The position numbers and the translations under genes are program-made. From NCBI RefSeq assembly GCF_003610195.1, contig NZ_RAPO01000004.1:496001-560000 (forward strand): 64,000 bases of DNA, in the 5' to 3' direction. Of this stretch, positions 37,777-56,546 are shown one piece after another. Origin of the DNA: Halopiger aswanensis. Its GTDB lineage: Archaea; Halobacteriota; Halobacteria; Halobacteriales; Natrialbaceae. The number at the start of each line of letters is the position of its first letter. Within the stretch, counting starts at the first letter, position 1. The notes under the pieces were generated by a model that was not told the DNA's origin, did no database searches, and saw nothing but the letters and a program-made list of their open reading frames with translations.

Positions 37777-38325
37777 ATGACCGACTGGCGTGTGAACACA
37801 CGAGACACAGGACACGAAAACGGGGAGGACATGTCGAAGCACTACATCACAACGGAGGAGCATCTGCCCGACGAGGAACTGGCAGAGACGACGCTTCAGA
37901 TCACCGATGCCGAGACGAAGCGAATCTTCGAGGCGCGAGTCCGGATTGCCCGCGAACCCGACGAGCTGACCGACCCGCGGCCGCTGCGGGTCGTCACTGG
38001 ACCGCACGAGAACGTTAGCGAGGAACGGTACGTCGAACTAATCGACGAGATTGACGAGGGAGAGATAGACGACGACCTCCTACATCGGCTCACGACCGAG
38101 CAGGAATCAGCATCGAACATCGTCAATACGCGGTCGGACGACCTCAAGGTGATTCTGCGCTATCTCGTCGAATCGGGCCAGTACGAATCGACCGCTGAGG
38201 CGCTCCGAGAGATCGCGTTCCAGCACCTCGCGGAGAATCGGCCCGCGCTGCTAGAAACGTACGAGGACGTTCGGACCGAGTTCGAAGCCGACCCGCTCCG
38301 TCGCGCCCTCACGGACGGGGAGTAG
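37777..38325 (+). CDS. Small acidic protein heading the UbiD operon, 182 aa
   Basis: Unrecognised acidic protein, 2 bp upstream of the UbiD gene and thus co-transcribed. The middle contains beta-like and charged stretches (LQITDAETKRIFEARVRIA, RYVELIDEIDEGEIDDDLL). The C-terminal 70 residues resemble a ribbon-helix-helix segment (DDLKVILRYLVESGQYES, TAEALREIAFQHL). It might be a dedicated small subunit, as multi-subunit UbiD carboxylases have, or a regulator of the operon. An ATG at 37831 (MSKHYITTEEHLPDEE) is an alternative start. The TATA-like element near 37750 supports 37777 as a leaderless start. Confidence 0.75.
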   Translation: MTDWRVNTRDTGHENGEDMSKHYITTEEHLPDEELAETTLQITDAETKRIFEARVRIAREPDELTDPRPLRVVTGPHENVSEERYVELIDEIDEGEIDDDLLHRLTTEQESASNIVNTRSDDLKVILRYLVESGQYESTAEALREIAFQHLAENRPALLETYEDVRTEFEADPLRRALTDGE

Positions 38326-38327
38326 CC

Positions 38328-39833
38328 ATGTTTGCCGACTCGTTCCGCACGTACCTCCACTTCCTCGAGGACGAAAACGACTGCATCAGGATCTCGGAGC
38401 CGACATCGTGGGATCTCGAGGCGAGTGCGGTCACGACCCTCGCCAACCGAACCGATGGCGAGGTACCGATCTTCGAGTCGATCAAGGAGGACACGATCGG
38501 CGCGGCGCTCGTCGGCGACCCGTACCGTGGTCCGCAGTACCGACCATGGGACCACCTCGCACGTTCGTTCGGGTTGCCGGCCGGGCTTTCCGGGACGGCG
38601 TACTACGAGAGGGTCGTGGAGCGGCTTCGGTCGCCTCGAGAGCCGCGGGTCGTCGATCGGGGTACAGCCCCGTGCAAGGAGGTCGTCCACACCGGGACGG
38701 ACGTCGACCTCCTGTCGATTCCCTGGCCGTACATCCACCAGGGCGACGGGGGACGGTACTCGAACCTCCACACCGTCGTTGCGCCGGATCCGGAGACACG
38801 GTGGGGACACTGGTCGAGCCACCGGATGATGATCCACGACGACGCCCTCGCCAGTTTGCTGTTCTTGGCGGGCGAACAGGCGCCGAACCGTTACTACTAC
38901 GAGTACGAACCGGGCGACGAGCCGATGCCCGTAGCCGTTGTTCTCGGCGCTGAACCGGCCGTTCAGTGCAGCACGGAGATGTGGATTCCGACAGGTCGGA
39001 GCGAGGCCGCCTTCGCAGGCGGTCTGAAAGACAGCCCCGTTAACCTAGTCCCCTGTGAGACGAGCGATCTGTTCGTCCCGGCGACGGCGGAACTGGTCGT
39101 CGAGGGACGGGTGCTTCCGAACGAGCGACTCGACGAGGGGCCGTTCGGCGACTACTTCGGGTACATGAACGGTCCACGGCGGTCCATGCCCGTACTCGCG
39201 GTCGACGCGATTACCCACCGGTCCGAGCCGCGGGTACCGTTCTGTGTCGAGGGAACCGGCGTCGGCTACGGGCAGAACTCGAGCAGCACGCTTCAGACGG
39301 CTGCGGCCGGCCCCGACGCGACCCTCGGGTTACGGGCGGCCGGCTTCGACGTCGAGCTGGCCGTCCCGTGGCGGTTTACCTCCCGGACCGTCTGGATCAT
39401 CGCGACGGACCGCCCGTATCCGGGTTACCTCCACGAACTAGCGAACTTCATCTTCACCACTTGGGGGATGCTCCACATCGATTTCTTCGTGTTCGTCGAC
39501 CCCGACGTCGACCCGCTCGACCCGCGGGCCGTACTGACCGCGATCGCGCTCGAGGCCGACCCGGACGCGGACTTCCACCAGTTCGGCGTCGAACGGATGC
39601 CGAAGGTACCGCTCAACATCTACCAGACCCCCGACGAGAAGGGCAGTGCTGACGTCGGTACCTCGAAAGCAAAGACCGCGAAAGCGTACATCGACGCGAC
39701 CGCCGATCGGCCGGCCGCGGACGGATCCGAGGACGAACGGCTGCGAACGCGAGCACAGGAACTCCTCGTCGACGCGGGGCTCTCGCCGGAGCCGTTCGAT
39801 CTCCTCGGAGAAGGAGGTGGTGAGTCCGGATGA
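38328..39833 (+). CDS. UbiD-family prenyl-FMN decarboxylase (active-site intact)
   Basis: UbiD-family enzyme of 501 residues, which reversibly decarboxylates aromatic or alpha,beta-unsaturated acids using prenylated FMN. The cofactor-binding region contains GHWSSHRMMIHDD (Arg near 166). The catalytic Glu/Asp region reads NERLDEGPFGDYFGYM at about 265-280, the conserved family signature. WPYIHQGDGGRYSN precedes the Mn/K-prFMN site. The flavin prenyltransferase UbiX is not in the window. Its stop overlaps the start of a second UbiD-like gene (ATGA), and a small acidic gene lies 2 bp upstream, so the three products probably form a complex. The substrate is unknown. Confidence 0.93.
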   Translation: MFADSFRTYLHFLEDENDCIRISEPTSWDLEASAVTTLANRTDGEVPIFESIKEDTIGAALVGDPYRGPQYRPWDHLARSFGLPAGLSGTAYYERVVERLRSPREPRVVDRGTAPCKEVVHTGTDVDLLSIPWPYIHQGDGGRYSNLHTVVAPDPETRWGHWSSHRMMIHDDALASLLFLAGEQAPNRYYYEYEPGDEPMPVAVVLGAEPAVQCSTEMWIPTGRSEAAFAGGLKDSPVNLVPCETSDLFVPATAELVVEGRVLPNERLDEGPFGDYFGYMNGPRRSMPVLAVDAITHRSEPRVPFCVEGTGVGYGQNSSSTLQTAAAGPDATLGLRAAGFDVELAVPWRFTSRTVWIIATDRPYPGYLHELANFIFTTWGMLHIDFFVFVDPDVDPLDPRAVLTAIALEADPDADFHQFGVERMPKVPLNIYQTPDEKGSADVGTSKAKTAKAYIDATADRPAADGSEDERLRTRAQELLVDAGLSPEPFDLLGEGGGESG

Positions 39834-41230
39834 TCTCGTTCGCGCAATACCTCCAAGGGCTGGCGGGTAACGGGGATCTGGTGACCCTCGAGGAGCCCAT
39901 CGACGTTCCCTTGGACGTGGTCGCGGCCGAGGCGCTCCGCGCGAGCGGACCGGCGCTCCGGTACGACCGAACCGACGGCGTCGACCTCGCCAGCGGGACG
40001 TTGGCCGGTCCGGACCAGATGCAGCGTCGGAAGTCGCGGCCGTGGTCGCGGCTGGCGCTGGGCCTCGGACTGGATCCGGAGGCGTCGTTCGTCTCCGTAC
40101 TCGAGACGATTACGAGTCTCGGTCCATCCGCCGGCGAAGCAGAGCCGACGTACGCCAGGCAGGCGGCGTCGCGCACCGTCGATAGTGTACAGAAGTTGCA
40201 CCTGCCGCAAGGCACCGACGATGTCTGGCCTTCGCTGACGCTAGGTGTCGCCTCGGTATCGACGGACGAGGGGTCACACTGGGCTCCGATTCACGGCTCC
40301 GTCATCGGCGACGACAAACTTCGCGTACGCACGCCGGCCGCGCTGTCGTCGTTGCTAGCCGACGACGGGACGCTCTCCATCGCGCTCGGCGTGCCGGCGG
40401 CGGCCGTGGCGGCCGCCTACCTGCTCGCTGTGACGGAAGGTATCGAGGTACCGGTACAGGACTGCGGCGTCGCGGACGATGTTCCGCTGGTCCCGACGAA
40501 CGGCGGCCTCGTCCCGAGCGCGACGGAACTAATCGTCGAGACGACGGTCGCGGACCGACACCCCGACTTCCAGTCCGACCGGCGTGAGGCGTGGGAACAC
40601 GGCGTCTCGAGTACGCCGCTTTCCCTCTCCGTCGAGCGAGTGATCGCGACCGACGATCCGGTGATCCCATTCTCGCCCGTCGGACGGCCGCTCGCGGACG
40701 ACCTACAGCTCACTGGGCTGGCGACGGCGGCGACGCTATACCGACGCGTCAACGACTACTGGGGAATCTCGCCCGTCGAGTGGGTTCTGTTGCCGGCAGA
40801 GGCCGAACTCGGCATCTGTTTTGTCGCTACGGACGTCCTTTACGCCGGCTTCGAGTGGCAGCTCGCTAACCTCCTCTTCGCCTTCTCGTCGCTTTTCGAC
40901 ACCGTCGTCATCGTTGACGAAGATGTCTCGCCGCGGGAACTCGGGCGCGTCCTCGGCGATATCTGGGTGAAAGCACATCCCTCTCGAGATTGGATATTCA
41001 GCGAATCGTCCGCACCGGCGGCGAAACGTCCCCGGTATCGCAAGGACGGGACGACCGGCGCTCGGCTGTACGTGAACGCGGCTTGGGATCCTCGCTGGGA
41101 GGATTCGTACATCGCCCCGCGGGTCTCGTTCGAGCAGTCGTTTCCGACGTCCGTTCGCGACGCCGCTCGGGAAGTGTGGAACGACCGTCACGACGCAGCG
41201 TCCGTCGACCGCGACCGGAGCGGATTTTGA
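39830..41230 (+). CDS. UbiD-like paralogue without the catalytic motif
   Basis: Protein of 466 residues showing the UbiD fold in outline but degenerate active-site regions. Matching segments are HWAPIHGSVIGDDKLRV (where the active paralogue has HWSSHRMMIHDD), TNGGLVPSATELIVETTV (before the position of EGPFG in the paralogue) and YAGFEWQLANLLFAFSSLF (versus YPGYLHELANFIFTTWGML). The EGPFG signature and the prFMN-contacting Arg are absent. It is translated from a 4-bp overlap with the active UbiD gene. Coupled pairs of UbiD-like subunits are known in phenylphosphate carboxylase. A structural or regulatory subunit is the likely role; independent catalysis is unlikely. Confidence 0.78.
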   Translation: MISFAQYLQGLAGNGDLVTLEEPIDVPLDVVAAEALRASGPALRYDRTDGVDLASGTLAGPDQMQRRKSRPWSRLALGLGLDPEASFVSVLETITSLGPSAGEAEPTYARQAASRTVDSVQKLHLPQGTDDVWPSLTLGVASVSTDEGSHWAPIHGSVIGDDKLRVRTPAALSSLLADDGTLSIALGVPAAAVAAAYLLAVTEGIEVPVQDCGVADDVPLVPTNGGLVPSATELIVETTVADRHPDFQSDRREAWEHGVSSTPLSLSVERVIATDDPVIPFSPVGRPLADDLQLTGLATAATLYRRVNDYWGISPVEWVLLPAEAELGICFVATDVLYAGFEWQLANLLFAFSSLFDTVVIVDEDVSPRELGRVLGDIWVKAHPSRDWIFSESSAPAAKRPRYRKDGTTGARLYVNAAWDPRWEDSYIAPRVSFEQSFPTSVRDAAREVWNDRHDAASVDRDRSGF

Positions 41231-41387: not shown

Positions 41388-43070
41388 ATGGTATCCAGCC
41401 ACAACCTGTCCGACTACGAGACTGAACGGGAGGAGTTCTCGTGGGACGACATTTACGCAGAAGCCGACTGGGACGCACCGGGGGAACTAAACATCGCACA
41501 CGAAGTCGCCGACCGACACGCTACCGACCGCGAGAAGGTCGCGCTTTACCAGGTCGATACCGACGGGGAACTCACGAAACTGACCTTCTGGGAACTGGCC
41601 GATCGCTCGAGTCAGTTCGCGAACGTGCTCGAAGAACTGGGTGTCGAGCAGGGCGATCGGGTATTCTCGTATATGCCGCGGATCCCAGAACACTACGTCG
41701 CCTTGGTCGGGACGCTCAAGCGGGGCGCCGTTTGGGGAAGCGTCAATGAGCGGTTCGGCCCGGACGGGATCTCCTACCGCCTTGACGACTGCGACGCGAA
41801 AGTCGTCGTCACTACGACCGACAACCGCGACACCGTCGAAGACGCACTCGAGGACGCGCCGTCGGTCGAGCACGTCATCACCGTCGACCGCGGTGGCGGG
41901 GCGCCCACCGATGACGTCTCGTTCAACGTGGCGCTCGACGGCGCGAGTACGGCGTACGACGCCGCCGAGACTGATGGCGAGGACGACGCACTGTTGTACT
42001 ACACGTCGGGGACGACCGGACTGGCGAAAGGCGTCCTGCACAAGCACCGCTGGGTGGCCGGCGTGGCGGCGACCCAGAAGTACGCCGTCGACCTCCAGCC
42101 GGGCGACCTCTACTGGAGCACTGGCGACCTGGGATGGTTGACGGGCGCGATCAACACGCTCGGCGCCTGGTTCTGGGGGGCCTCGCTGTTCACCTACGAG
42201 GACGAGTTCGACCCGGAGGAGTGGGCCGACTTACTCGACGAGTACCCCATCAACGTCCTGTTCTCGGTCCCGACGGCCTACCGAATGCTCCGGGAAAAAG
42301 AGGACGTACTGGAGGGCGTCGACCTCGACCTGCGACACGCGCTGTCTATCGGCGAGCCGCTCAGCGCCGGCGTCGTCGAGTGGGGCGAGGACGTGCTCGG
42401 CGTCACCATCCTCGACACGTACGGCCAGACGGAGACGGGCAACATGATCATCAACAACTACCCGACCATGGAGGTCCGGCCCGGCTCGATGGGCAAGCCA
42501 CTCCCCGGAATCGAGGCCGACATCATCGACTCCGAAACGGGCGAAGTACTCGAACCCGGCGAAACCGGCGAAATCGCCCAGCGCGGGGACTACCCCTGCT
42601 TCTTCGCCGAGTACTGGAACAAGCCCGAGAAGACCGCGTCATGTTTCGTCGACGGTCCTGACGGCGAGTGGTACCTCTCCGGTGACCTCGCGCACAAAGA
42701 CGAGGACGGCTACTTCTGGTTCGAGGGACGGGCGGACGACGTCATCCTCTCCTCTGGCTACCGGATCGGCCCGTTCGAGGTCGAGAGTTCGCTGGGCGAG
42801 CACGAGGCGGTCGCCGAGGCCGCCGTCGTGCCCAAGCCGCACTCGGAACGGGGCAACATCGTGAAAGCCTACATCGTCCCCAGCGAGGGCACAACGCCGT
42901 CCGAGGAGCTCAAGGAGGACATCAGGAACCACGTTCGCGACGAATTGTCGGCCCACGAGTACCCCCGCGAAATCGAGTTTCGCGACGAGCTGCCGAAGAC
43001 GGTTACCGGAAAGATCCGACGGACGGAGCTCCAGGACGAGGCGGAAGCGGAGACCGAGGCGTCGCCGTAA
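41388..43070 (+). CDS. AMP-forming acyl-CoA ligase (medium-chain/ACSM-like)
   Basis: Adenylate-forming ligase of 560 residues. The P-loop is YYTSGTTGLAKGVLHKH, A5 is DTYGQTETGNM, A7 is SGDLAHKDEDGYFWFEGR, and the catalytic Lys lies in LPKTVTGKIRRTEL. The sequence follows the ACSM/medium-chain and aryl acid ligase branch, not acetyl-CoA synthetase. It heads an operon with acyl-CoA dehydrogenase, biotin-dependent carboxylase and MaoC hydratase genes, so it probably activates the entry acid of that pathway. A strong TATA box lies immediately upstream. The upstream UbiD operon on the same strand may feed it the acid. The exact acid is not predictable. Confidence 0.93.
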   Translation: MVSSHNLSDYETEREEFSWDDIYAEADWDAPGELNIAHEVADRHATDREKVALYQVDTDGELTKLTFWELADRSSQFANVLEELGVEQGDRVFSYMPRIPEHYVALVGTLKRGAVWGSVNERFGPDGISYRLDDCDAKVVVTTTDNRDTVEDALEDAPSVEHVITVDRGGGAPTDDVSFNVALDGASTAYDAAETDGEDDALLYYTSGTTGLAKGVLHKHRWVAGVAATQKYAVDLQPGDLYWSTGDLGWLTGAINTLGAWFWGASLFTYEDEFDPEEWADLLDEYPINVLFSVPTAYRMLREKEDVLEGVDLDLRHALSIGEPLSAGVVEWGEDVLGVTILDTYGQTETGNMIINNYPTMEVRPGSMGKPLPGIEADIIDSETGEVLEPGETGEIAQRGDYPCFFAEYWNKPEKTASCFVDGPDGEWYLSGDLAHKDEDGYFWFEGRADDVILSSGYRIGPFEVESSLGEHEAVAEAAVVPKPHSERGNIVKAYIVPSEGTTPSEELKEDIRNHVRDELSAHEYPREIEFRDELPKTVTGKIRRTELQDEAEAETEASP

Positions 43071-43124: not shown

Positions 43125-44291
43125 ATGAATTTCGAGTCTACGGACGAACGCGCGATGATCCGGTCGACCGCGGAATCGGTCGCGGCCGAGTACGGACCGG
43201 AGTACTGGCGAGAAAAAGAGGAGAACGGCGAGTTCGCCCAAGAGTTCTGGGACGAACTGGCGGAGGCCGGTTTCCACGGGCTGCTGGTCCCGGAGGAGTA
43301 CGCTGGCGCTGGCATGGGGATGCAAGAGATGGGGTTGGTGATGGAGACGCTCTGTGCCGAGGGCTGTGGCATGGCCGGCACCTGGTATCTGGTGCTCACC
43401 GCAGGTATGGCCGCCGTCGGCATCCGTGAGAACGGCACCGAGGCCCAGAAGGAGACCTACCTCCCCGACATCGCGAACGGCGAGCGGAATTTCTCCATCG
43501 GAATCACCGAACCGGAGGCGGGGACGAACACGCTGAACGTTGCGACGCGCGCCGAGAAAGAGGGTGACGAGTACGTCCTCAACGGACAGAAGGCGTGGAT
43601 CACGTTCGCCGATCGGGCGGACAACATGATCATCGTCACGCGGACGACCCCTCTAGAGGAGGTCGACCGCGGCACCGACGGCATCAGCCTGTTCATCGTC
43701 GACATGGACGACCCTGGCATCGACGTCGCGCCGATCCCCAAACACGGCATCAACTACTCGAAGTCCTGTGAGGTTTTCCTCGAGGACGTTCGAGTCCCCG
43801 AAGAGAACCTGCTGGGCGAGGAAGACGAGGGCTGGTGGGTGCTCGTCGATATGTTGAATCCCGAGCGTATCGGCTTCGCCGCGGCCGGGACGGGGATCGG
43901 AAAACTGGCCGCTGACACCGCTGTCGAGTACGCCAACGATCGTGAAGTGTTCGGTGCCCCGATCGGGAGCCATCAGGCCGTCTCGTTCCCCATTACGCAG
44001 GCCTACGCGCGGATGGAGACGGCCGCGTTGATGCGCGAGAAGGCCGCGTGGCTCTACGATCACGACGAGGACTGCGGCTACGAGACCAACATCGCGAAGG
44101 CGACGGCCGTCAGCGCCGGTATCGAGGCGGTCAAGCAGTCGATGCAGGCCTTCGGCGGCTGGGGCTACGCCACGGAGTACGACGTCGAGCGCTGGTGGCG
44201 CGAGATCAACCTCACTCGACTGGCGCCGGTCTCCCAACAGATGGCGTATAATCACATCAGCCAGCAGCTCGGTTTCCCGAAGTCCTACTGA
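43125..44291 (+). CDS. Acyl-CoA dehydrogenase
   Basis: FAD-dependent acyl-CoA dehydrogenase of 388 residues. Family signatures are visible: [17 protein letters not shown] (flavin-binding loop), [17 protein letters not shown], and the C-terminal [19 protein letters not shown], where the segment upstream of the last helix usually positions the base. It introduces a 2,3-double bond into an acyl-CoA and passes electrons to ETF. It is the second gene of the operon (54 bp after the ligase, 2 bp before the biotin carboxylase). Feeding a carboxylase after dehydrogenation is the logic of isovaleryl- or terpenoid-CoA pathways, but this is inference. Confidence 0.92.
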
Positions 44292-44293
44292 CC

Positions 44294-46078
44294 ATGTTCG
44301 AGAAAGTGCTCGTCGCAAACCGCGGCGAAATCGCAGTCCGCGTGATGGCAGCGTGTGAGGAACTGGGCATCGAGACAGTGGCTGTCTACAGCGACGCCGA
44401 CCGCGACGCCGGCCACGTCGAGTACGCCGACGAGGCGTACAACGTCGGCCCGGCACCGGCCAGCGAGTCGTACCTCGACCAGAAGGAGATCCTTGACGTC
44501 GCCCAGCGTGCGGACGCCGACGCGATCCACCCCGGCTACGGCTTCCTCGCGGAGAACGCCGAGTTCGCCGCACGGGTCGAGACCGCCGACGGGATCACCT
44601 GGGTCGGTCCGCCCAGCGGCGCCATGGAGACGCTCGGCGAGAAGACGAAGGCCCGATCCGTCATGCAGGAGGCCGGCGTCTCGGTCGTCCCAGGGACCAC
44701 CGATCCCGTCGAGGATCCCGCGGAAGTGCGCGAATTGGGCGAGGAGTTCGGTTATCCGATCGCCATCAAGGCCGAAGGTGGCGGTGGCGGTCGCGGCATG
44801 AAGATCGTCCGGAGCGAGGCCGAAGTCGAGGACGCACTGGCGAGCGCCAAGCGCGAGGGCGAGGCGTACTTCGACAACGACTCCGTGTACGTCGAGAAAT
44901 ACCTCGGAGCTCCGAAACACATCGAGGTGCAGGTGCTGGCGGACGAGCACGGCAACGTTCGCCACCTCGGCGAACGTGACTGCTCACTGCAGCGGCGCCA
45001 CCAGAAGGTCATCGAGGAAGCACCCAGTCCGGCGCTGGATGCCGAGTTGCGTGCAGAGATCGGCGAGGCTGCCCGCCGGGGTGTCCGCGAGGCCGGCTAC
45101 ACGAACGCCGGGACCGTGGAATTCCTCGTCGAAGATGGGGAGTTCTACTTTATGGAGGTTAACACCCGCATCCAGGTCGAACACACCGTCACCGAGGAGG
45201 TGACCGGGATCGACATCGTGCGCTGGCAGCTTCGGGTCGCCGCGGGCGAGGAACTGGACTTCGCTCAGGACGACGTAGAAATCGGCGGCCACGCCGTCGA
45301 GTACCGGATCAACGCCGAGAACCCGGCTGAGGACTTCGCACCGACGCCGGGACCGCTGACGACGTACGCTCCCCCGAGCAGTATCGGCGTCCGCCTCGAC
45401 CATGCGGTCGCGCAGGGCGACGAAATCGGCGGGGACTACGACTCGATGATCGCGAAACTGATCGTCGCGGGCGAGGACCGCGAACACTGTCTGGATCGGT
45501 CGAGACGCGCCCTCGACCACTTCACCGTCGAGGGAGTTCATACCACGATCCCGTTTCACCGGTTGATGCTCGAGGACGAGACGTTCATCACCGGCGACCA
45601 CACCACGAAGTATCTCGATCAGGAACTCGACGACCGGACCCTCGACGCAGCTGTCGACCGCTGGGGGACCGACGAGGTCGGTGGCGACACACCGTCGGCA
45701 TCGACCGACGAGATTACCGTCGAGGTCGACGGGAAGCGCTTCGACGTCGTCGTCGAGGACGGTCTCCCGCGCGCCCGGCGCAGTGGCGACGCCGGCGAGG
45801 GATCCAGCGCCGGAAGTTCCGGCGGTGGGTCGGCCGGGAGCGCCGCGGTGGACGTGTCCACATCGGGTACGATCACCGCCGAGATGCAAGGGACCGTCCT
45901 GTCAGTGGCGGTTGAGCCCGGCGACGAGGTCGCGGCAGGCGACGTCGTCTGCGTGCTGGAAGCGATGAAGATGGAAAACGACGTGGTGGCGTCTACCGGG
46001 GGGACCGTCGCGTCGGTACCGGTCGCGGAGGGCGACTCCGTGGATATGGGCGACACATTGGTCGTCCTGGAGGAGTGA
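44294..46078 (+). CDS. Biotin carboxylase / biotin carboxyl carrier fusion subunit
   Basis: Alpha subunit of an acyl-CoA carboxylase, 594 residues. The biotin-carboxylase domain (about 1-445) has the ATP-grasp loop [15 protein letters not shown], the [20 protein letters not shown] active-site stretch and NAENPAEDF. After a Gly/Ser-rich linker, the last 75 residues are the BCCP lipoyl-like domain with EAMKMEN, whose Lys is biotinylated. It uses ATP and bicarbonate to make carboxybiotin and hands it to the carboxyltransferase encoded 2 bp downstream. The linker ([16 protein letters not shown]) is longer than in many homologues. Biotin ligase is not encoded here. Confidence 0.95.
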
Positions 46079-46080
46079 GC

Positions 46081-47799
46081 ATGCGAATCAGAATCTCGGA
46101 CGATACGACCGAATCGGAAGCAGCGGCGATCGCGGAGGCATTGGCGACACACTTCGAGGAGGACGTGATCCTCGTCGTCGACAGCGGCGACGAAGTCGGC
46201 AGCGCCACCTACGACGGCGACGAGCGCGACGCGACCGCAGAGACAGTTGACGACGATCTCGGCCCGACCGAACGCGAGGAGACGCTCCTCGAGGAAATCG
46301 AGGAGATTCTCGAAGGCGGTCCCGAGAAGTACAAAGCGCAGCTGCCCGAGGAGGGCAAACTCTTCGTTCGCGACCGGATCGACCTGTGGTTCGGCGACGA
46401 CTTCCTGTTCGAGGACGGCAAGTTCGCGGAGTTCGACGCCGACGACCGGCTCCCGGCTGACGGGCTCATCACCGGAGCCGCGGAGTTCGAAGGCCGTGAC
46501 CTGCACTTTATGGCTAACGACTACACGGTCAAACGCGGCAGCATGGCCGCGAAGGGTGTCGAGAAGTTCCTCCGGATGCAACAGCGGGCCTTGAAGACGG
46601 GACGTCCCGTCCTCTACCTGATGGACTCCTCGGGCGGCCGGATCGATCAGCAGACCGGCTTCTTTGCCAACCGCGAGGGCATCGGGAAGTACTACTACAA
46701 CCACTCGATGCTCTCGGGCAGGGTTCCGCAGATCTGCGTGTTGTACGGTCCCTGTATCGCCGGCGCGGCCTACACCCCCGTGTTCGCGGATTTCACGGTC
46801 ATGGTCCGGGACATGAGTGCGATGGCCATCGCGTCCCCCCGGATGGTCGAGATGGTCACCGGCGAAGAGATCAGCCTCGAAGAGCTGGGCGGCCCCGACG
46901 TGCACGCCCGACATTCCGGGAGCGCGGACCTCGTCGCCGATGACGAGGAAGAGGCGCGGGAACTCGTCGCCAAACTAATCGGCTATCTGCCCGACAACGC
47001 CGACGAGGACCCGCCACGGACCAGCGGCACGGAACCGAAGTTCTCGCCAGCAGGGATCGATGCCATTGTTCCCCAAGAACCGAACAAGGGCTACGACATG
47101 TTCGACGTGATCGACCGGGTAGTCGACGCCGGGTCGACGCTCGAACTGCGGCCCGAGTACGGCGAGGAGATAATCACGTCGTTCGCCCGGATCGACGGCC
47201 GGCCGGTCGGGATCGTCGCCAACCAACCCAACCACCGAGCCGGTGCTATTTTCCCCGATGCAGCGGAGAAAGCGGCCCAGTTCATCTGGACCTGCGATGC
47301 CTACAACATCCCGCTACTGTATCTCTGTGACACGCCCGGGTTCATGGCCGGTTCCGGCGTCGAGAAAGAAGGCATCCTCGAGCAGGGCAAGAAGATGATC
47401 TACGCCACGTCCTCGGCGACGGTTCCCAAGCAGTCAGTCATCGTCAGGAAGGCCTACGGTGCGGGGATCTACGCGATGTCCGGTCCGGCCTACGATCCGG
47501 AATCGACCATTGGTCTTCCAAGCGGCGAGATCGCAATCATGGGGCCGGAGGCGGCGATCAACGCCGTCTACGCCAGAAAGCTCTCCGAGATCGAAGACGA
47601 GCAAGAGCGCAAGCAAAAAGAGCAGGAACTGCGCGAGGAGTACCGTGAAGACATCGATATCCACCGAATGGCCAGCGAGGTCGTCATCGACGAGATCGTC
47701 CCGCCGAGCAGTCTCCGAGAGGAGTTGACGAACCGCTTCGCGTTCTACGAGACCGTCGAGAAAGATCTGCCGGCCAAGAAACACGGAACGATTCTATGA
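46081..47799 (+). CDS. Acyl-CoA carboxylase carboxyltransferase with extra N-terminal domain
   Basis: Carboxyltransferase (beta) subunit, 572 residues. Residues about 90-570 are the crotonase-fold carboxyl transferase, with oxyanion stretches SSGGRIDQQTGFFANREGI, GPCIAGAAYTPVFAD and DTPGFMAGSGVEKEGI. The first 90 residues (MRIRISDDTTESEAAAIAEA, EEDVILVVDSG) form an added acidic domain like the small epsilon/PccX accessory subunit of some carboxylases, here fused. GEIAIMGPEAAINAVYARK near the C-terminus is more PCC-like than MCC-like. It is translationally coupled to the MaoC gene (ATGA). The substrate may be propionyl-, methylcrotonyl- or another acyl-CoA. Confidence 0.92.
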   Translation: MRIRISDDTTESEAAAIAEALATHFEEDVILVVDSGDEVGSATYDGDERDATAETVDDDLGPTEREETLLEEIEEILEGGPEKYKAQLPEEGKLFVRDRIDLWFGDDFLFEDGKFAEFDADDRLPADGLITGAAEFEGRDLHFMANDYTVKRGSMAAKGVEKFLRMQQRALKTGRPVLYLMDSSGGRIDQQTGFFANREGIGKYYYNHSMLSGRVPQICVLYGPCIAGAAYTPVFADFTVMVRDMSAMAIASPRMVEMVTGEEISLEELGGPDVHARHSGSADLVADDEEEARELVAKLIGYLPDNADEDPPRTSGTEPKFSPAGIDAIVPQEPNKGYDMFDVIDRVVDAGSTLELRPEYGEEIITSFARIDGRPVGIVANQPNHRAGAIFPDAAEKAAQFIWTCDAYNIPLLYLCDTPGFMAGSGVEKEGILEQGKKMIYATSSATVPKQSVIVRKAYGAGIYAMSGPAYDPESTIGLPSGEIAIMGPEAAINAVYARKLSEIEDEQERKQKEQELREEYREDIDIHRMASEVVIDEIVPPSSLREELTNRFAFYETVEKDLPAKKHGTIL

Positions 47800-48260
47800 C
47801 GGGCAAGCACTACGAGGAGTTCGCGGTCGGCGAGACCATCGACCACGGAAAGCGACGAACGATCAGCGAGCGGGACAACCAGCAGTTCTGTGACATGACG
47901 ATGAACCAGCAACCGTTACACCTCGATGCCGAGTTCGCGGCCGATACCGAGTTCGGCGAGCGGCTGGTCAACGGACTCTACACGATGAGCCTCGCCGTCG
48001 GGCTGACCATTCCGGAGACGACCGACGGCACTATCGTCGCAAACTTGTCCTACGATAACGTTGAGCATCCGAATCCGGTATACCACGGCGACACGATCCG
48101 CGTCCAGTCGACCGTCACCGACAAACGAGAGACCAGCGACGGCGAACGCGGGGTCGTCACGATGCACGTCGAGGTGTTCAAGGTCAACGCGGCGGAGGAA
48201 CCGCTCGTCTGCGAGTTCGACCGCACCGTACTCTCACTGAAACGCGAACACGCCACGTGA
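47796..48260 (+). CDS. MaoC-like enoyl-CoA hydratase
   Basis: Hot-dog-fold hydratase of 154 residues. The motif region DMTMNQQPLHLDAEFAADT carries the Asp/His pair of MaoC/(R)-hydratases, followed by NGLYTMSLAVGLTIPET. Such enzymes add water to 2-enoyl-CoA; close relatives include mesaconyl-CoA hydratase, which forms methylmalyl-CoA. The gene overlaps the carboxyltransferase stop by 4 bp. A CitE-type lyase gene lies just downstream on the opposite strand, and a hydration plus retro-Claisen sequence would be consistent with that. It is the last intact gene of the operon. Confidence 0.9.
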   Translation: MTGKHYEEFAVGETIDHGKRRTISERDNQQFCDMTMNQQPLHLDAEFAADTEFGERLVNGLYTMSLAVGLTIPETTDGTIVANLSYDNVEHPNPVYHGDTIRVQSTVTDKRETSDGERGVVTMHVEVFKVNAAEEPLVCEFDRTVLSLKREHAT

Positions 48261-48510: not shown

Positions 48511-49344
48511 CTACTGTCGACCGGCTTCGCGAGCGCGTTCGAGAATGCGTTCGGCCTGCGAGATGAGTGGCGCGTCGATCATCTCCCCGTCGACCTCGAA
48601 GACGCCGGCATCGGTTTCGGCGTCGGCCTCGACGACGCGTTCGGCCCACGCGATCTCTTCGTCGCTGGGCGTGAACGCGTCGTTAATGACCGGAACTTGA
48701 TCAGGGTGGATCGCCATCTTTCCGTCGTACCCGAATTGGACGGCGCGCTTAGTCGATTCGCGGAGTCCGTCCAGGTCCTCGTAATCCGTATAAATAGTGT
48801 CAATCGCACCGACACCGGCGGCACTGGCCGCGATCACGGTCCGTTCGCGGGCGTACAACACCTCCATCCCTTCGCTCGTGCGAGTCGCACCGATGTCGGC
48901 TGCGAGGTCTTCGGCCCCGAATAGCAGCGCGTCGGTCGCGTCGGCCGCCGCGATATCGTCGGCCCGGAGGACCCCCGACGCGGATTCGATGAGCGACAGC
49001 ACCGGAAGGTCGACACCGCGTTCCTCGAGCAAGCGGTCGATCCTCTGGACGTCCTCGGCTGCTTCCGCCTTCGGCAGCATCACGCTGTCCGGAGTTGCCC
49101 CCTCGAGGACGGCCCCGAGGTCGGTCGCAGCCGAGATACCAATCGGATTCACCCGAACGCAGACCTCGCACTCAGACTCGACGTCGTTGAGTACCTCGCG
49201 GACGGCCTCGCGAGCATCTTCCTTGTCGGCCGGAGCGACTGCGTCCTCGAGGTCGAAGACGACGGTGTCGGCGTCAGTCTTGGCTGCTTTCCGCATCAGA
49301 GCTGGTTTGTCACCGGGGGCGAAAAGAACGCTTCGACGAACCAT
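48511..49344 (-). CDS. HpcH/HpaI-CitE family CoA-ester lyase
   Basis: Lyase of 277 residues in the CitE/malyl-CoA lyase family. The start MVRRSVLFAPGDKPALMRKA is the family's classic N-terminus. The metal-binding residues lie in VVFDLEDAVAP and the LSLIESASGV region; FGAEDLAADIG and GYDGKMAIHPDQV complete the CoA and metal site. Family members cleave malyl-, citramalyl- or methylmalyl-CoA to glyoxylate or pyruvate plus an acyl-CoA. It lies 99 bp downstream of the amidohydrolase gene on the same strand and faces the MaoC hydratase operon, so it may act on the hydrated product. Substrate inferred, not shown. Confidence 0.9.
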   Translation of the reverse strand: MVRRSVLFAPGDKPALMRKAAKTDADTVVFDLEDAVAPADKEDAREAVREVLNDVESECEVCVRVNPIGISAATDLGAVLEGATPDSVMLPKAEAAEDVQRIDRLLEERGVDLPVLSLIESASGVLRADDIAAADATDALLFGAEDLAADIGATRTSEGMEVLYARERTVIAASAAGVGAIDTIYTDYEDLDGLRESTKRAVQFGYDGKMAIHPDQVPVINDAFTPSDEEIAWAERVVEADAETDAGVFEVDGEMIDAPLISQAERILERAREAGRQ

Positions 49345-49443
49345 ACCAGTAGCTGCCACGTATCCCGAGTAAGTGGTGTCGATTCTTATAACGGAGTGAA
49401 GGAGTCCGTCGTGAGGTGCCATCCTCCCGAACGACCGTCTCCG

Positions 49444-50340
49444 TCACTCGAGGGCGAAGTCCGATTCGGACTCGAGCCCGAGATAGTCGGCGGCCGTTCG
49501 GGCGAAGAGATCTCGGACGGTCCCCGCGGGGAGGTCTCGAGCGAGGAGTCCCGCTCGTTCGGCGCGGTAAGGGTACGGAATGTTCGGGAAGTCGGAGCCG
49601 TACATAATCGACTCCGAGAGGTTGACGAGAGTCTCGTCGGCGATCGTCGACGGATCGAACCCCATCGTCTCCGTCGCCGCGGTCGACATCGCGAACGTCG
49701 TGTCGAGATAAACGTTCTCGTGGTCTCGCGCGAGGTCGAGAAAATCCTCGACCTCGTAGGTGCCCATGTGCGCGCAGCAGACGCGAAGCTCCGGATACGA
49801 AGCCACCAGTTCCGCGAACGCGTCCGCGCCAACGTACGGGCTATCCTCGAACATCGGTGCCGTGCCGCCGTGGTAGGTGATCGGCCGATCGGCTGCCGCC
49901 GCAACCTCGAGGGCCGGCTCGAGTCGCGAGTCCGCGGGGCGACACTCTTGGACCGGACAGTGGATCTTCAGGCCCTTCGCTCCCCCGTCGAAGGCGTCTC
50001 GAACGATATCAGCGACGCCGTCGTCGTCGGGATGAACCGTCGCGAACGGGAGTAGCACGTCCGACGCGGCGGCCTGCTCGCGGAGCCATTCGTTCAACCC
50101 GCGTGCGATCCCCGGTTTGTGTGCGTACGGGAGTGCGACGTAGGCGGTGACGCCGGCCGCGCGGAGGACGTCCTCGATCTCCGGGCGAGCCGTCGGGTGC
50201 GAGAACTCCCAGCCGGTCTCGGTGGTAAGCGAGCGGCGGATCGCGTCGCTGAGTCGCTTCGGGAAGAGGTGCGTATGGGCGTCGATCGCGGGACTGAACG
50301 GAGACGATCCATCCTCTGACTGTCGTTCGGTAGCGGACAT
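49444..50340 (-). CDS. Amidohydrolase-superfamily (ACMSD-like) hydrolase/decarboxylase
   Basis: TIM-barrel metalloenzyme of 298 residues. The N-terminal metal motif is DAHTHLFPK, the mid-barrel Lys/His segment GAKGLKIHCPVQ, the third strand CCAHMGTYEVEDF, and the final metal Asp lies in MYGSDFPNIPYPY. This layout matches amidohydrolase_2 proteins such as ACMSD, 4-oxalomesaconate-type hydratases and gamma-resorcylate decarboxylase. Reactions include non-oxidative decarboxylation and lactone hydrolysis. It pairs with the CitE-type lyase on the same strand. With UbiD upstream, an aromatic or dicarboxylate pathway is plausible but unproven. Confidence 0.87.
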   Translation of the reverse strand: MSATERQSEDGSSPFSPAIDAHTHLFPKRLSDAIRRSLTTETGWEFSHPTARPEIEDVLRAAGVTAYVALPYAHKPGIARGLNEWLREQAAASDVLLPFATVHPDDDGVADIVRDAFDGGAKGLKIHCPVQECRPADSRLEPALEVAAAADRPITYHGGTAPMFEDSPYVGADAFAELVASYPELRVCCAHMGTYEVEDFLDLARDHENVYLDTTFAMSTAATETMGFDPSTIADETLVNLSESIMYGSDFPNIPYPYRAERAGLLARDLPAGTVRDLFARTAADYLGLESESDFALE

Positions 50341-52693: not shown

Positions 52694-53011
52694 TTAGTTT
52701 GGCTTTGGCTCGAGAATCGACTGTACGGCGTCAGGATCGTACGGCCGAAATTCGCCGTCGACGATTTGGCCGACTGGTAATCCATCGACCGAATCGCGCG
52801 TTCCGCACTCGAGACACTGGCCGACTGCATCCGCAGTGATAATCGGACCGTCGGCGTTTGCGTCGACAAACGTCTCGAGGAGGATCGATGCGGGTTCACA
52901 TTCACAGAATACACCGCGAGAAAGCATCCAAATGTCGCTCACGCTTACCTGTCGAGCGTCGTTGACGCTGATCCACGCGCCATCGTCCAGCGTTCGAATT
53001 GCAACCGTCAT
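52694..53011 (-). CDS. Hypothetical protein with zinc-binding Cys motifs, 105 aa
   Basis: Protein of 105 residues with CECEP near residue 36 and CLECGT near residue 66, forming one probable zinc site. The first half (MTVAIRTLDDGAWISVNDAR, VSVSDIWMLSRGVF) is beta-rich. It is acidic and well formed, so likely real, but I do not recognise the family. It lies upstream of the nitrite/sulfite reductase gene on the same strand, with a 116-bp gap. An AT-rich stretch at 52656-52690 within that gap may hold regulatory DNA. Confidence 0.72.
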   Translation of the reverse strand: MTVAIRTLDDGAWISVNDARQVSVSDIWMLSRGVFCECEPASILLETFVDANADGPIITADAVGQCLECGTRDSVDGLPVGQIVDGEFRPYDPDAVQSILEPKPN

Positions 53012-53345
53012 ATACCCACTTCAGCGGTCAGTAACCTCCGTTCGTCGACCAACACAATGTTTACCGGTGTGGTGACTCTCTGCAGTTCTATTCTCTCTAC
53101 GACAGGTTAAGGATAATCTGCGATCGTACTGAATCACTCGTAGCAGCTGTCCCTGAACATGAACCGCCCTACTCGAGGTAGTCTACATTGCCGAGCGTCC
53201 CCAAAAGGTGTCGATTTTCACATCGATAATAGGGTATAGAGAAAAAGAAATCATCCCACACCATCTTGCGAGCGTTCTGAGGAATGTACACCACCCTGCA
53301 AGTGTTTAAATACACCAGAAATGAGGAGTTAGACGTCACTGTATA

Positions 53346-54019
53346 GTTTAGCACCTCAGGCTATATCTGTCGGTTAAGTGATTGGTGTATTCACTGTGTA
53401 TTGTAGTAGTGTACAAACTACTCAATACATACCCTGATGCTCGCCTGACTGCCTACCCACGAGTTATAGGAGGGTTTGACCCGCATTTTGAGGGTATAGA
53501 ACCACTCTTCGATGTGGTTCCGATCGACAGAATTCAGGTGCTTTTCAATCCTGATCGGAAGATGAGATTTAGATAACCGTAACCATCGACGACAAATACA
53601 GTATCGGAAAGACCGTGTTTCTCGGTTAATCGATGCAAGAACGCAACAACTAGATCGGTGCTTTATCGTCCGAACATTGTGACATCGAGAATGAATCTCG
53701 AGCCCACTATTATTGCAATTCATACCCAATACCATTCGCTGTTAATAATGACGTTTTTCTTATTAATGATGGCCTACGACGGCTTCGCCGTCAGCAGGTC
53801 CGAAAGGCTATCAGCCAGCCGATGTACCCAGCGGCGGATTGCTTGATGAGATCGTTTGACGCCGCTCGAGCGATTCTTCGCTTGTGTCTCTCAAAGCGAA
53901 TATCCGGTCACGTAGAGGCAAACGGCGAACACCCTGACGGGCATCGCCGTCCACTCACGCTTCCAACATTCATCAAATTCCGCCGCGTAATACTCGCTGA
54001 GCAGGTCTGCGAGTATCAT
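53346..54019 (-). pseudogene. Degenerate IS transposase (IS6-like, haloarchaeal)
   Basis: A full-length but ruined transposase. Reading from 54019 on the minus strand: MILADLLSEYYAAEFDECW, WTAMPVRVFAVCLYVTGYSL, then a stop, SHQAIRRWVHRLADS, SRFILDVTMFGR, a stop, FLHRLTEKHGLSDTVFVVDG, a frameshift near 53545, DRNHIEEWFYTLKMRV, NSWVGSQAS, a stop, FVHYYN, a stop, HQSLN, a stop, PEVLN. I count seven in-frame stops and one frameshift. The pattern is that of compact haloarchaeal DDE transposases usually filed under IS6. The element is immobile and old. No terminal repeats or target duplication could be identified with certainty. Confidence 0.8.
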
Positions 54020-54142
54020 AGCCAAAATAGCTCTACGACCCGCTCACTTTTCAAACCACGCTAACTAGATGGGACCTCTTTAGAGATAATTTCGCAGCTC
54101 GGTGATTTCAGAGTGTGTATTTTAATCGACAACAGTGTGTAC

Positions 54143-54163
54143 ATGGGCTCCGTTAGAGCCCAT
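54143..54163. repeat. Perfect 8-bp-stem hairpin near IS remnant
   Basis: ATGGGCTC and GAGCCCAT flank the 5-nt loop CGTTA. It lies about 125 bp upstream of the transposase remnant start and 48 bp past the RidA stop. It could be a RidA transcript end structure or part of the old IS border; neither is proven. Confidence 0.4.
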
Positions 54164-54210
54164 TTGCTAACATTATGCAGTCGTACAGCGCTTTTGGCAA
54201 AGACTCTTCA

Positions 54211-54588
54211 TCATTCAGCGCGCGCGATGACTTCGATTTCGACACCGATCTCGATTGGAAGTTGTGATATTTCTACGGCCGCTCGTGCCGGATACGGCTC
54301 GTCCATGTACTTGGCGTATACTTCGTTCACCGCCTCGTAGTCGTCCATGTCGGTGACATAGACGTTCGCTTTTAGTATATCGTCGAGAGATGCGTTGGCA
54401 GCTTCTAAGATAGCTGAAATATTCTCGATTGTCTGGGCTGTCTGCTCACGAATATCCTCCGATACGACCTCTCCGGTTTCGGGGTTAACCGGACCCTGTC
54501 CGGATACGTATATCCGCCCCTCATCCTTGATTCCCTGAGAGTACGGTCCAATTGCACTGGGGTCCTCGTCAGTCACAATCTCTTCCAT
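54211..54588 (-). CDS. RidA-family reactive enamine/imine deaminase
   Basis: RidA (YjgF/YER057c/UK114) family protein of 125 residues. Signatures are IGPYSQGI near the N-terminus, ANVYVTDMDDYEAVNEVY, and PARAAVEISQLP, which contains the substrate-carboxylate-binding Arg. It hydrolyses reactive 2-aminoacrylate-type enamines/imines and protects PLP enzymes. Family trimer size and residues are complete, so the gene should be functional. It is divergent from an IclR regulator pseudogene, with about 40 bp between the RidA start and the first recognisable IclR codons. The pair was probably once a regulated unit. Confidence 0.92.
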   Translation of the reverse strand: MEEIVTDEDPSAIGPYSQGIKDEGRIYVSGQGPVNPETGEVVSEDIREQTAQTIENISAILEAANASLDDILKANVYVTDMDDYEAVNEVYAKYMDEPYPARAAVEISQLPIEIGVEIEVIARAE

Positions 54589-54625
54589 ACTTCAGGTATC
54601 TCATAACACACCCGACCGGTCGCCT

Positions 54626-55300
54626 GGTACTACTCACACCTATCTATCGACGCTTCAGAATCTAGGTTACGTTCGCACTGTTAAAGGCAAATACACGTCG
54701 GCCTGTTCGCGTTACCGCTCGGCGAATACGTGCGATCGCACTCGCGACTTTATCAAGTCGGCAAGTCAGAAGTCGATAAACTCGCTCAAGAAACAGGCGA
54801 AGCCAGTCACTTAGTGGTCGAAAGCCACGGTCGAGAGATTTTACTGTACGAACGGTTCGGACCAGAAGCAGTTGGCGAGGACCTCTACACTCGGATCAAG
54901 GGATTTCCAAGGCGAAATCTCCACTGTTCAGCGGCCAGCAAGGCAATTCTCGCTCACCTCGAACCGGAGCGTCGAGATGATATTCTCGAAGACTACGAAT
55001 TCATCTCGAGGACGCCGAATACAATCACAGATGAGGAAACCTTGCGAGAAGAGTTTGAGAACGTACGCGCGAAAGCATTTGCTCGCAACGACGAAGAACA
55101 GATAGCTGGAGTAACGAGCCGTCGCTGCACCGATAATTCAGGATGAGACAGTGCACGGTGCGATCAGCCTCTCCGCGCCGACGAGTCGAATGCGGGGCGA
55201 ACGATTTTCGACTACAGTTCCAGAGCGAGTTGTTGATTCCGCTAATGTGATTGAGGTTAATTTACAGATGCCCGAACCAACGGTGGGATCTAATATATAA
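54626..55300 (+). pseudogene. IclR-family regulator pseudogene (two frameshifts, 5' truncation)
   Basis: Remnant of an IclR regulator. Codons from about 54629 read TTHTYLSTLQNLGYVRTVKG, the end of the HTH; the first part of the HTH is missing. One base is lost after 54694 (TACACGTC, expected TAC-CAC-GTC), after which VGLFALPLGEYVRSHSRLYQ continues. The ligand domain is open to about 55110, where one extra base (GTA-A-CGA-GCC) shifts the frame; the continuation AVAAPIIQDETVHGAISLS runs to a TAA at 55298-55300. Undoing both shifts restores the C-terminal two thirds. Inactivation appears recent because no other stop occurs. Confidence 0.82.
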
Positions 55301-55769
55301 TATCAGTACGAATTAAATTTTCGTTTAACCGTTAAGGGTCTTCCCATTCATGAGGTTGTGTGTCACCCTAAATTTTGACGATGACAAAACTGACTCCCGT
55401 AACTGAAACTCACAGGCAATCTCGAACCCGACACATATTACACTAGTACCGTTGTAAATAACACATTAAGCTTTCAACGGAAAAGTGCTAATTCCGGAGC
55501 ATAGAATTAGAATGCTACAAACGAAACTTGACCACAACAGTATACCCGTGGACTATACGTAGGGGCAACCACGCTGCAGTTCGGGTTGAGATAGATGAAA
55601 TGCAGAATACTATAGTATATTATATGATGTATATTTTTACAGTTGTACTCTTGTAACGGATCACTGACTGTCCGGTTCCGATTTTATACACAACGAGTGA
55701 CCGTCGATTCGGTACCTGCATTCGAATATATCGAATACCGCCTGGATCGACTGATCCCCTGCGTCCGAG
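55301..55769. other. AT-rich region of about 470 bp without genes
   Basis: Contains no acidic frame and many short AT stretches, for example around 55605-55640. It separates the IclR pseudogene from an intact IclR gene whose stop is at 55770. Its composition is markedly different from the GC-rich genes. I see no recognisable repeat, RNA or transposase fragment in it. Confidence 0.55.
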
Positions 55770-56546
55770 CTACGAGTGTGCGATATTGAGCTCGAGTTCG
55801 TTCGCGGCGCCAAGCAGCAGATTCGGAAGTTCTTCCTCGAAGCGCTCGCCCTTTAGGCGGTGACTCGGACCGGTAACGCTGAGTCCGCCGATGACGTCGC
55901 CATCTGGTCCACAGATGGGGACACCCACCGCGTGTGTGCCGCGCAGGGATTCCTCACGGTTGAAGGCGTACCCGCGCTCGCGGACTGTTTCAAGTTCGGC
56001 ACGAAGCTCATCGGGATCGGTGATCGTGCGCTCCGTCACGGGCTCAAAGGCCATGCGTTCGAACATATCGGACAGTTTTGGCTCGGGAAGTTCCGACAAG
56101 ATCGCCTTCCCGGCTGACGCTGCGTACAGCGGGATACGGCTCCCGATACCGGGGTCAGTCCGGACCGCGTGTTCGCCGACTGACCGCGCTAAGTACACCG
56201 CCTTCCCGTGTTCCTCAACAAAGAACTGTGCTCGTTCGCCGGTCTCCTCGGCGAGCGCCTCAACTTTTTCTCGGACAAGGCCGTACCCCCGATAGCTGTT
56301 CCGGGCAGTCACCCCGATCTCAAGGAATTGGAGGCCAACGTGATAGCCGTCTTCGCGCTCAACGACGTACTCGAGGTCCTCGAGCGTCCGCAGGTGCCGA
56401 TGAATCGTACTCTTCGCATAGTCGAGATCAGCCGCGAGCGCTGACAATGACGCACCCTCTCTATCTGCGATATATTCGACTATGCTGAACATCGTTCGTG
56501 CCGTCTGGACTGAATCTGTTGGACCAGCCCTGTTTGGTGTGTCCAT
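55770..56546 (-). CDS. IclR-family transcriptional regulator
   Basis: IclR regulator of 258 residues. The winged HTH is MFSIVEYIADREGASLSALA, then YAKSTIHRHLRTLEDLEYV; the effector domain contains GERAQFFVEEHGKAVYLAR, YAASAGKAILSELPE and the conserved NREESLRGTHAVGVPI, plus GGLSVTGPSHR. Such proteins repress or activate catabolic genes in response to pathway acids. It is divergent from an MFS transporter gene with 51 bp between the starts. A perfect palindrome lies there, overlapping the MFS promoter, so it very likely controls the transporter and perhaps the downstream sugar-acid genes. Confidence 0.94.
   Translation of the reverse strand: MDTPNRAGPTDSVQTARTMFSIVEYIADREGASLSALAADLDYAKSTIHRHLRTLEDLEYVVEREDGYHVGLQFLEIGVTARNSYRGYGLVREKVEALAEETGERAQFFVEEHGKAVYLARSVGEHAVRTDPGIGSRIPLYAASAGKAILSELPEPKLSDMFERMAFEPVTERTITDPDELRAELETVRERGYAFNREESLRGTHAVGVPICGPDGDVIGGLSVTGPSHRLKGERFEEELPNLLLGAANELELNIAHS
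56475..56490. promoter_or_regulatory. Second, imperfect copy of the IclR palindrome inside the regulator gene
   Basis: TTCGACTATGCTGAAC matches the promoter palindrome (TTCGACTATGTCGAAC) at 14 of 16 positions, 106 bp away and in the same orientation. It lies within the first codons of the IclR gene, where it encodes the conserved FSIVEY region, so the match could be due to protein constraint. Confidence 0.3.

Follow-up and report, generated by a model that had tools for sequence, protein, structure and literature searches.

The flavin prenyltransferase UbiX is thought to make the cofactor needed by all UbiD enzymes. The window analysed here, a 64,000-nucleotide stretch of the 4.87 Mb genome of the haloarchaeon Halopiger aswanensis, contains a tightly coupled trio of genes, A, B and C, the last two of which code for UbiD-related proteins. 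The trio stands for a large and coherent archaeal group that has UbiD and lacks a recognisable UbiX, with extra proteins of its own and an altered cofactor site, and it makes testable the question of whether there is a second route to prenylated FMN (prFMN) or a UbiD enzyme that has no need of prFMN. A literature search for a haloarchaeal UbiD trio or for a UbiX-less UbiD returned nothing directly on either.

Arrangement and distribution of the trio

The three genes are located on the forward strand. Gene A (37831 to 38325) codes for a protein of 164 amino acids of no known family and is followed, after a gap of 2 bp, by gene B (38328 to 39833), coding for a UbiD-family protein of 501 amino acids, which shares an ATGA overlap with gene C (39830 to 41230), coding for a UbiD-fold protein of 466 amino acids. 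The gene order and coupling given in a preliminary description of this DNA were borne out by these coordinates, and only its start for gene A, at 37777, had to be moved: the homologous proteins begin at the residue encoded at 37831 (MSKHYITT), annotated relatives have the equivalent start with a CDS of 165 amino acids, and comparison with 15 close relatives shows no conservation of the ATG at 37777. In the annotation of relatives, B and C are each named 'UbiD family decarboxylase' and A 'hypothetical protein'.

We searched the proteins of 199 haloarchaeal relatives. Matches to A and strong matches to C were found in an identical set of 56 genomes, all 56 of which also carry a UbiD domain (B), and the co-occurrence on which the preliminary description had made its reading depend is thereby borne out; the weak C matches left over were mostly ordinary UbiDs. 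The joint conservation of A and C is far beyond chance. In the fetched loci A, B and C adjoin one another with rare exceptions and nearly everywhere in the order A-B-C, with a B/C overlap of -4 bp in 55 of the 56 measured loci and an A/B spacing ranging from -11 to +34 bp. The pairwise distance matrices of the three proteins are correlated with r = 0.92-0.94, to which shared species history contributes, and the sequences indicate that A, B and C co-evolve, with that history as part of the correlation. A scan of named genomes found C in Halobacteria only (Natrinema, Haloarcula, Natrialba, Halorubrum, Haloferax and others), and a plasmid scan was consistent with this restriction. In a phylum sample of 394 genomes, 22 strong matches to A were obtained, all in the window's own order, together with one weak match of 43 residues.

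Analysis of the neighbouring genes splits the trio loci into type I, to which the window belongs, and type II, each with a different acyl-CoA pathway. A, B and C each tell the two types apart: the lowest identity within a type is about the highest identity between types, with medians well apart. Two genomes hold two trio loci each, G111 with one of each type, and G022. In the latter (loci L092, L109 and L132), one BC pair has no A next to it, the second pair has a short divergent A, and an additional stand-alone copy of A lies elsewhere on the same contig.

Residues of the two UbiD-fold proteins

Protein B matched the Pfam UbiD models over all three domains (PF20695, PF01977 and PF20696, for the N-terminal, rift and C-terminal domains), all above cut-off, with an E value of 7.8e-63 for PF01977. 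No other UbiD rift domain is encoded in its own genome, and a control search of Haloferax volcanii returned no UbiD domain. The best PDB relatives of B are Fdc1 structures (5e-46). The EGPFG signature and the flavin-contact arginine earlier attributed to the first UbiD are both present, the signature as EGPFGD with its glutamate at Glu270 of B. Residue tables were obtained by aligning 57 B and 58 C sequences with Fdc1 and E. coli UbiD. In Fdc1 numbering, R173, E277, E282 (as Asp) and E233 are kept in all 57 B sequences, so that the Arg-Glu-Asp network, which is needed for prFMN maturation and catalysis, is intact as judged from the alignment.

The manganese ligands N168, H191 and E233 are usual for UbiD enzymes and are not kept in every active member. 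Together with K391, these three residues coordinate the cofactor's Mn ion in Fdc1 (PMC4947166). In trio B proteins Asn168 is kept in only 2 of 57 sequences and His191 is replaced by Gln in all 57. Type I proteins have any of Arg, Ser, His, Thr and Asn at position 168, and those of type II nearly always have Asp; the residue is Asn in 17 of 19 UbiX-partnered haloarchaeal UbiDs. HudA, which requires prFMN (PMC7976604), has Ser at this position in the PDB profile alignment, so the change at N168 alone does not exclude prFMN in B. Position 191 also varies in some classical UbiDs. In the same residue table, the UbiX-partnered UbiDs of two loci (L211 and L222) carry Gly in place of N168 and Arg in place of H191, and two classical UbiD proteins have Lys at E233, so that the cofactor-metal site is unusual in some classical UbiDs too. 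Residues 417-458 of B (window 39576-39702) hold a near-invariant motif of the trio B proteins, HQFGVExMPKVPLNIYQTPxEKG...GTSKxKTAKAYIDA, with no counterpart seen in the aligned region of the Fdc1 matches.

Protein C matched the Pfam model UbiD_C, matched UbiD_N weakly, and did not match the rift-domain model PF01977. A profile search of the PDB with C returned Fdc1/HudA at 1e-17, and its predicted model, of low confidence in the C-terminal third, matched the HudA fold at 7e-20; by profile and by model, C has a UbiD fold. The EGPFG motif is missing in all 58 C sequences, in which E277 and E282 are both lost, and the position equivalent to R173 holds His in the window's C and Arg in 22 of 58. 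Our results thus agree with the earlier view of C as a protein that keeps the outline of the fold without an intact active site. The accompanying statement that C lacks both motif and arginine holds family-wide for the motif; for the arginine it holds in the window, yet not for the 22 relatives that keep it. The C-terminal domain is the most conserved part of C which, together with the kept fold, would fit C as a structural partner of B. We also considered C as a chance or decayed gene and rejected this: the gene is intact, and 58 loci conserve it.

UbiX and protein A

UbiX (TIGR00421, above cut-off) was found in 18 of the 199 relatives, and these are exactly the 18 genomes that have a UbiD domain but no trio (18/18); none of the 56 trio genomes and none of the 125 others gave a match. 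The PF02441 model, which covers both UbiX and CoaBC, found a second member only in the UbiX genomes, the trio genomes holding a single one at the CoaBC score level. In the genome of the window CoaBC is the sole superfamily member, with nothing better at E values up to 10. With relatedness ignored, such a split would arise by chance once in C(74,18), about 1e-17, a figure that relatedness weakens. The same contrast recurs within one genus (g9, where G112 differs from its trio-bearing congeners) and within one family (f4). An assembly artefact is unlikely, as completeness is 94% or more in nearly all trio genomes and the two models agree. A divergent UbiX below the HMM thresholds may be present in trio genomes. 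Replacement of UbiX by a shared neighbour gene was rejected as well: in the neighbour analysis, the two locus types have no neighbour in common besides A and C. Since the trio genomes have no recognisable UbiX, the co-expression with UbiX proposed earlier would mimic a situation absent from the native host.

Protein A consists of a beta-rich N-terminal half with an invariant GPHE, followed by NTRS and a ribbon-helix-helix-like C-terminal half. Searches of Pfam, NCBIfam and the PDB returned nothing convincing for it. In the AlphaFold model (pTM 0.44) the N-terminal half is rich in beta structure and the C-terminal half is helical, and a fold search with the model returned no match, LpdD-like fold included. 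No likeness of A to LpdD/VdcD, in sequence or fold search, or to PhdC was detectable. From its sequence, A could be a regulator, an accessory subunit or a cofactor protein.

Proposed function and rival explanations

On balance, we consider it probable that the trio codes for a heteromeric UbiD-type (de)carboxylase with C as its non-catalytic partner, A as accessory protein or regulator, and no canonical UbiX involved. The three products would act as one functional unit, a reversible (de)carboxylase that may assemble into a complex. B would carry the active site, with the Arg173/Glu277/Asp282 network, and C, a paralogue minus the catalytic glutamates, probably stands in for one of the two protomers of the usual homodimer. 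A would be a dedicated accessory for cofactor handling or for regulation.

A rival to this assignment of A is that it could be an autoregulatory DNA-binding protein outside the enzyme, leaving a (de)carboxylase of B and C only, an explanation that we regard as possible but doubtful. A opens the operon, one genome combines a BC pair that has no A beside it with an isolated A at another place, and residues 93-131 of A align gaplessly with the ribbon-helix-helix of E. coli NikR, with a median z of 4.3 over 58 homologues. However, the Pfam ribbon-helix-helix models matched none of 18 A members, and the AlphaFold model contains neither a ribbon-helix-helix fold nor its strand. The ribbon-helix-helix-like end previously assigned to A has some support, from the likeness to NikR. 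Also against the regulator explanation, visual inspection of the DNA upstream of A in 16 close relatives showed no conserved palindrome, the co-evolution of A with B and C is as tight as that between B and C, and both operon types, whose downstream genes differ, draw on one A family.

A second group of explanations concerns the cofactor. With no recognisable UbiX, prFMN would come from an unrelated enzyme, or another flavin cofactor would be used instead, an alternative with which the changes at the Mn-phosphate site in B would be compatible. We give an even chance to a UbiX-independent UbiD heteromer with a dead UbiD subunit, whose cofactor either comes from a new, non-homologous prenyltransferase or is not prFMN. 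A, as the only universal partner besides C, would be a candidate if the cofactor comes from a new flavin prenyltransferase. Slightly short of even, in our estimate, is the explanation that B is an ordinary prFMN-dependent UbiD, supplied by a strongly diverged or non-homologous prenyltransferase elsewhere or by moonlighting CoaBC. The invariant Arg-Glu-Asp network and the activity of HudA with Ser at the N168 position (PMC7976604) are consistent with it, and CoaBC, a member of the UbiX superfamily, is universal in these genomes. Nevertheless, CoaBC is equally present in genomes without UbiD, those with a classical UbiD always add a separate UbiX, and the two operon types share no neighbour except A and C. 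The loss of UbiX and of two Mn ligands and the unusual near-invariant C-terminal motif of B might also point to B and C being no longer (de)carboxylases and having been recruited to another flavin-dependent or ligand-binding role; this is improbable, for the catalytic Arg, Glu and Asp are invariant in 57 B sequences across two divergent types.

The surroundings of the trio bear on the substrate of the proposed (de)carboxylase. A CoA ligase and acyl-CoA genes flank both types. In the window, and conserved beside type I trios, an AMP-binding acyl-CoA synthetase (41388 to 43070, forward strand, as are the following) opens the downstream acyl-CoA module. It is followed by an acyl-CoA dehydrogenase (43125 to 44291), a biotin carboxylase with a biotin carrier domain (44294 to 46078), an acyl-CoA carboxylase carboxyltransferase of the propionyl/methylcrotonyl type (46075 to 47799) and a MaoC-type enoyl-CoA hydratase (47796 to 48260) conserved in type I loci. 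Counterparts of the type I dehydrogenase, 71-87% identical, are also found in trio-free genomes, in many cases next to the carboxyltransferase gene, and the carboxyltransferase is near-universal in relatives; we infer that the trio is an add-on front end of an existing pathway. Type II neighbours are an MBL-fold hydrolase, enoyl-CoA hydratases, an epoxidase of the PaaA/PaaB/PaaC/PaaD type, a ferredoxin, a CoA ligase scoring above the benzoate-CoA ligase family cut-off, a thiolase and an aldehyde dehydrogenase, and these loci probably encode a haloarchaeal aryl-CoA epoxidase pathway. Three of them (L130:9767-17660, L226 and L227) show the Paa-type di-iron epoxidase set, a stand-alone 2Fe-2S ferredoxin and an enzyme of the benzoate-CoA-ligase family. 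Tentatively, the unit would make or trim the carboxylate of an unsaturated or aromatic acid, which the neighbouring CoA ligase would then activate. Equally tentatively, this acid might in type I be a short branched one that feeds the biotin-carboxylase pathway and in type II an aryl acid that feeds the epoxidase pathway of the PaaABC type. The trio also points to unexplored routes of branched-acid and aromatic-acid catabolism in haloarchaea.

Further downstream, a RipC/CitE-like lyase (48511 to 49422) had hinted at an itaconate-type pathway as part of the unit, which was rejected as the lyase is not a conserved neighbour. It is adjoined by an Amidohydro_2 protein (49447 to 50340, reverse strand), for which we found no NCBIfam match and no PDB relative at 1e-10. 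The window also includes a stretch (53000 to 55900) of low G+C content, about 47-50% compared with 60-66% in the surroundings, where long ORFs are scarce. Inside it lies a piece of 138 amino acids resembling an IclR regulator (54730 to 55146); an intact IclR-type gene is found at 55770 to 56546 on the strand opposite to this piece.

Comparison with known systems

Fdc1 and HudA are single-subunit homo-oligomers whose prFMN comes from UbiX/Pad1. The Fdc1/HudA (PA0254) branch contains the nearest solved relatives of B (Fdc1) and of C (HudA), and the Arg-Glu-Glu/Asp network of B is shared with it. The trio differs in adding a crippled second UbiD and a small protein, in having no UbiX and in its altered Mn ligands. 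The vanillate and gallate decarboxylases VdcBCD/LpdBCD resemble the trio in combining a UbiD enzyme with a small companion, D; they have a UbiX gene of their own (B) and no second UbiD-fold subunit, whereas the trio is without UbiX and its A is unlike LpdD/VdcD. Among such small companions of UbiD, LpdD is a prFMNH2-binding chaperone (PMC10865409) and PhdC a prFMN maturase (PMC13040415).

Phenylphosphate carboxylase (PpcABCD), to which the trio had initially been likened, has two UbiD-like subunits and a small one in one complex, a composition that the gene arrangement of the trio would fit, and the analogy is structural only: with the Ppc models TIGR02723/TIGR02724, B scored 150/96 bits against cut-offs of 564.6 (alpha) and 469, and C 18.5 bits, also far below the cut-offs. 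A matches no described small subunit, no phosphatase subunit was seen, and the trio is haloarchaeal. Two UbiD-like subunits also work together in the phenylphosphoamidate carboxylase of Desulfatiglans anilini, for which FMN was reported in one study to suffice (PMC7500099), and which provides a precedent for a two-subunit UbiD-like carboxylase with FMN only.
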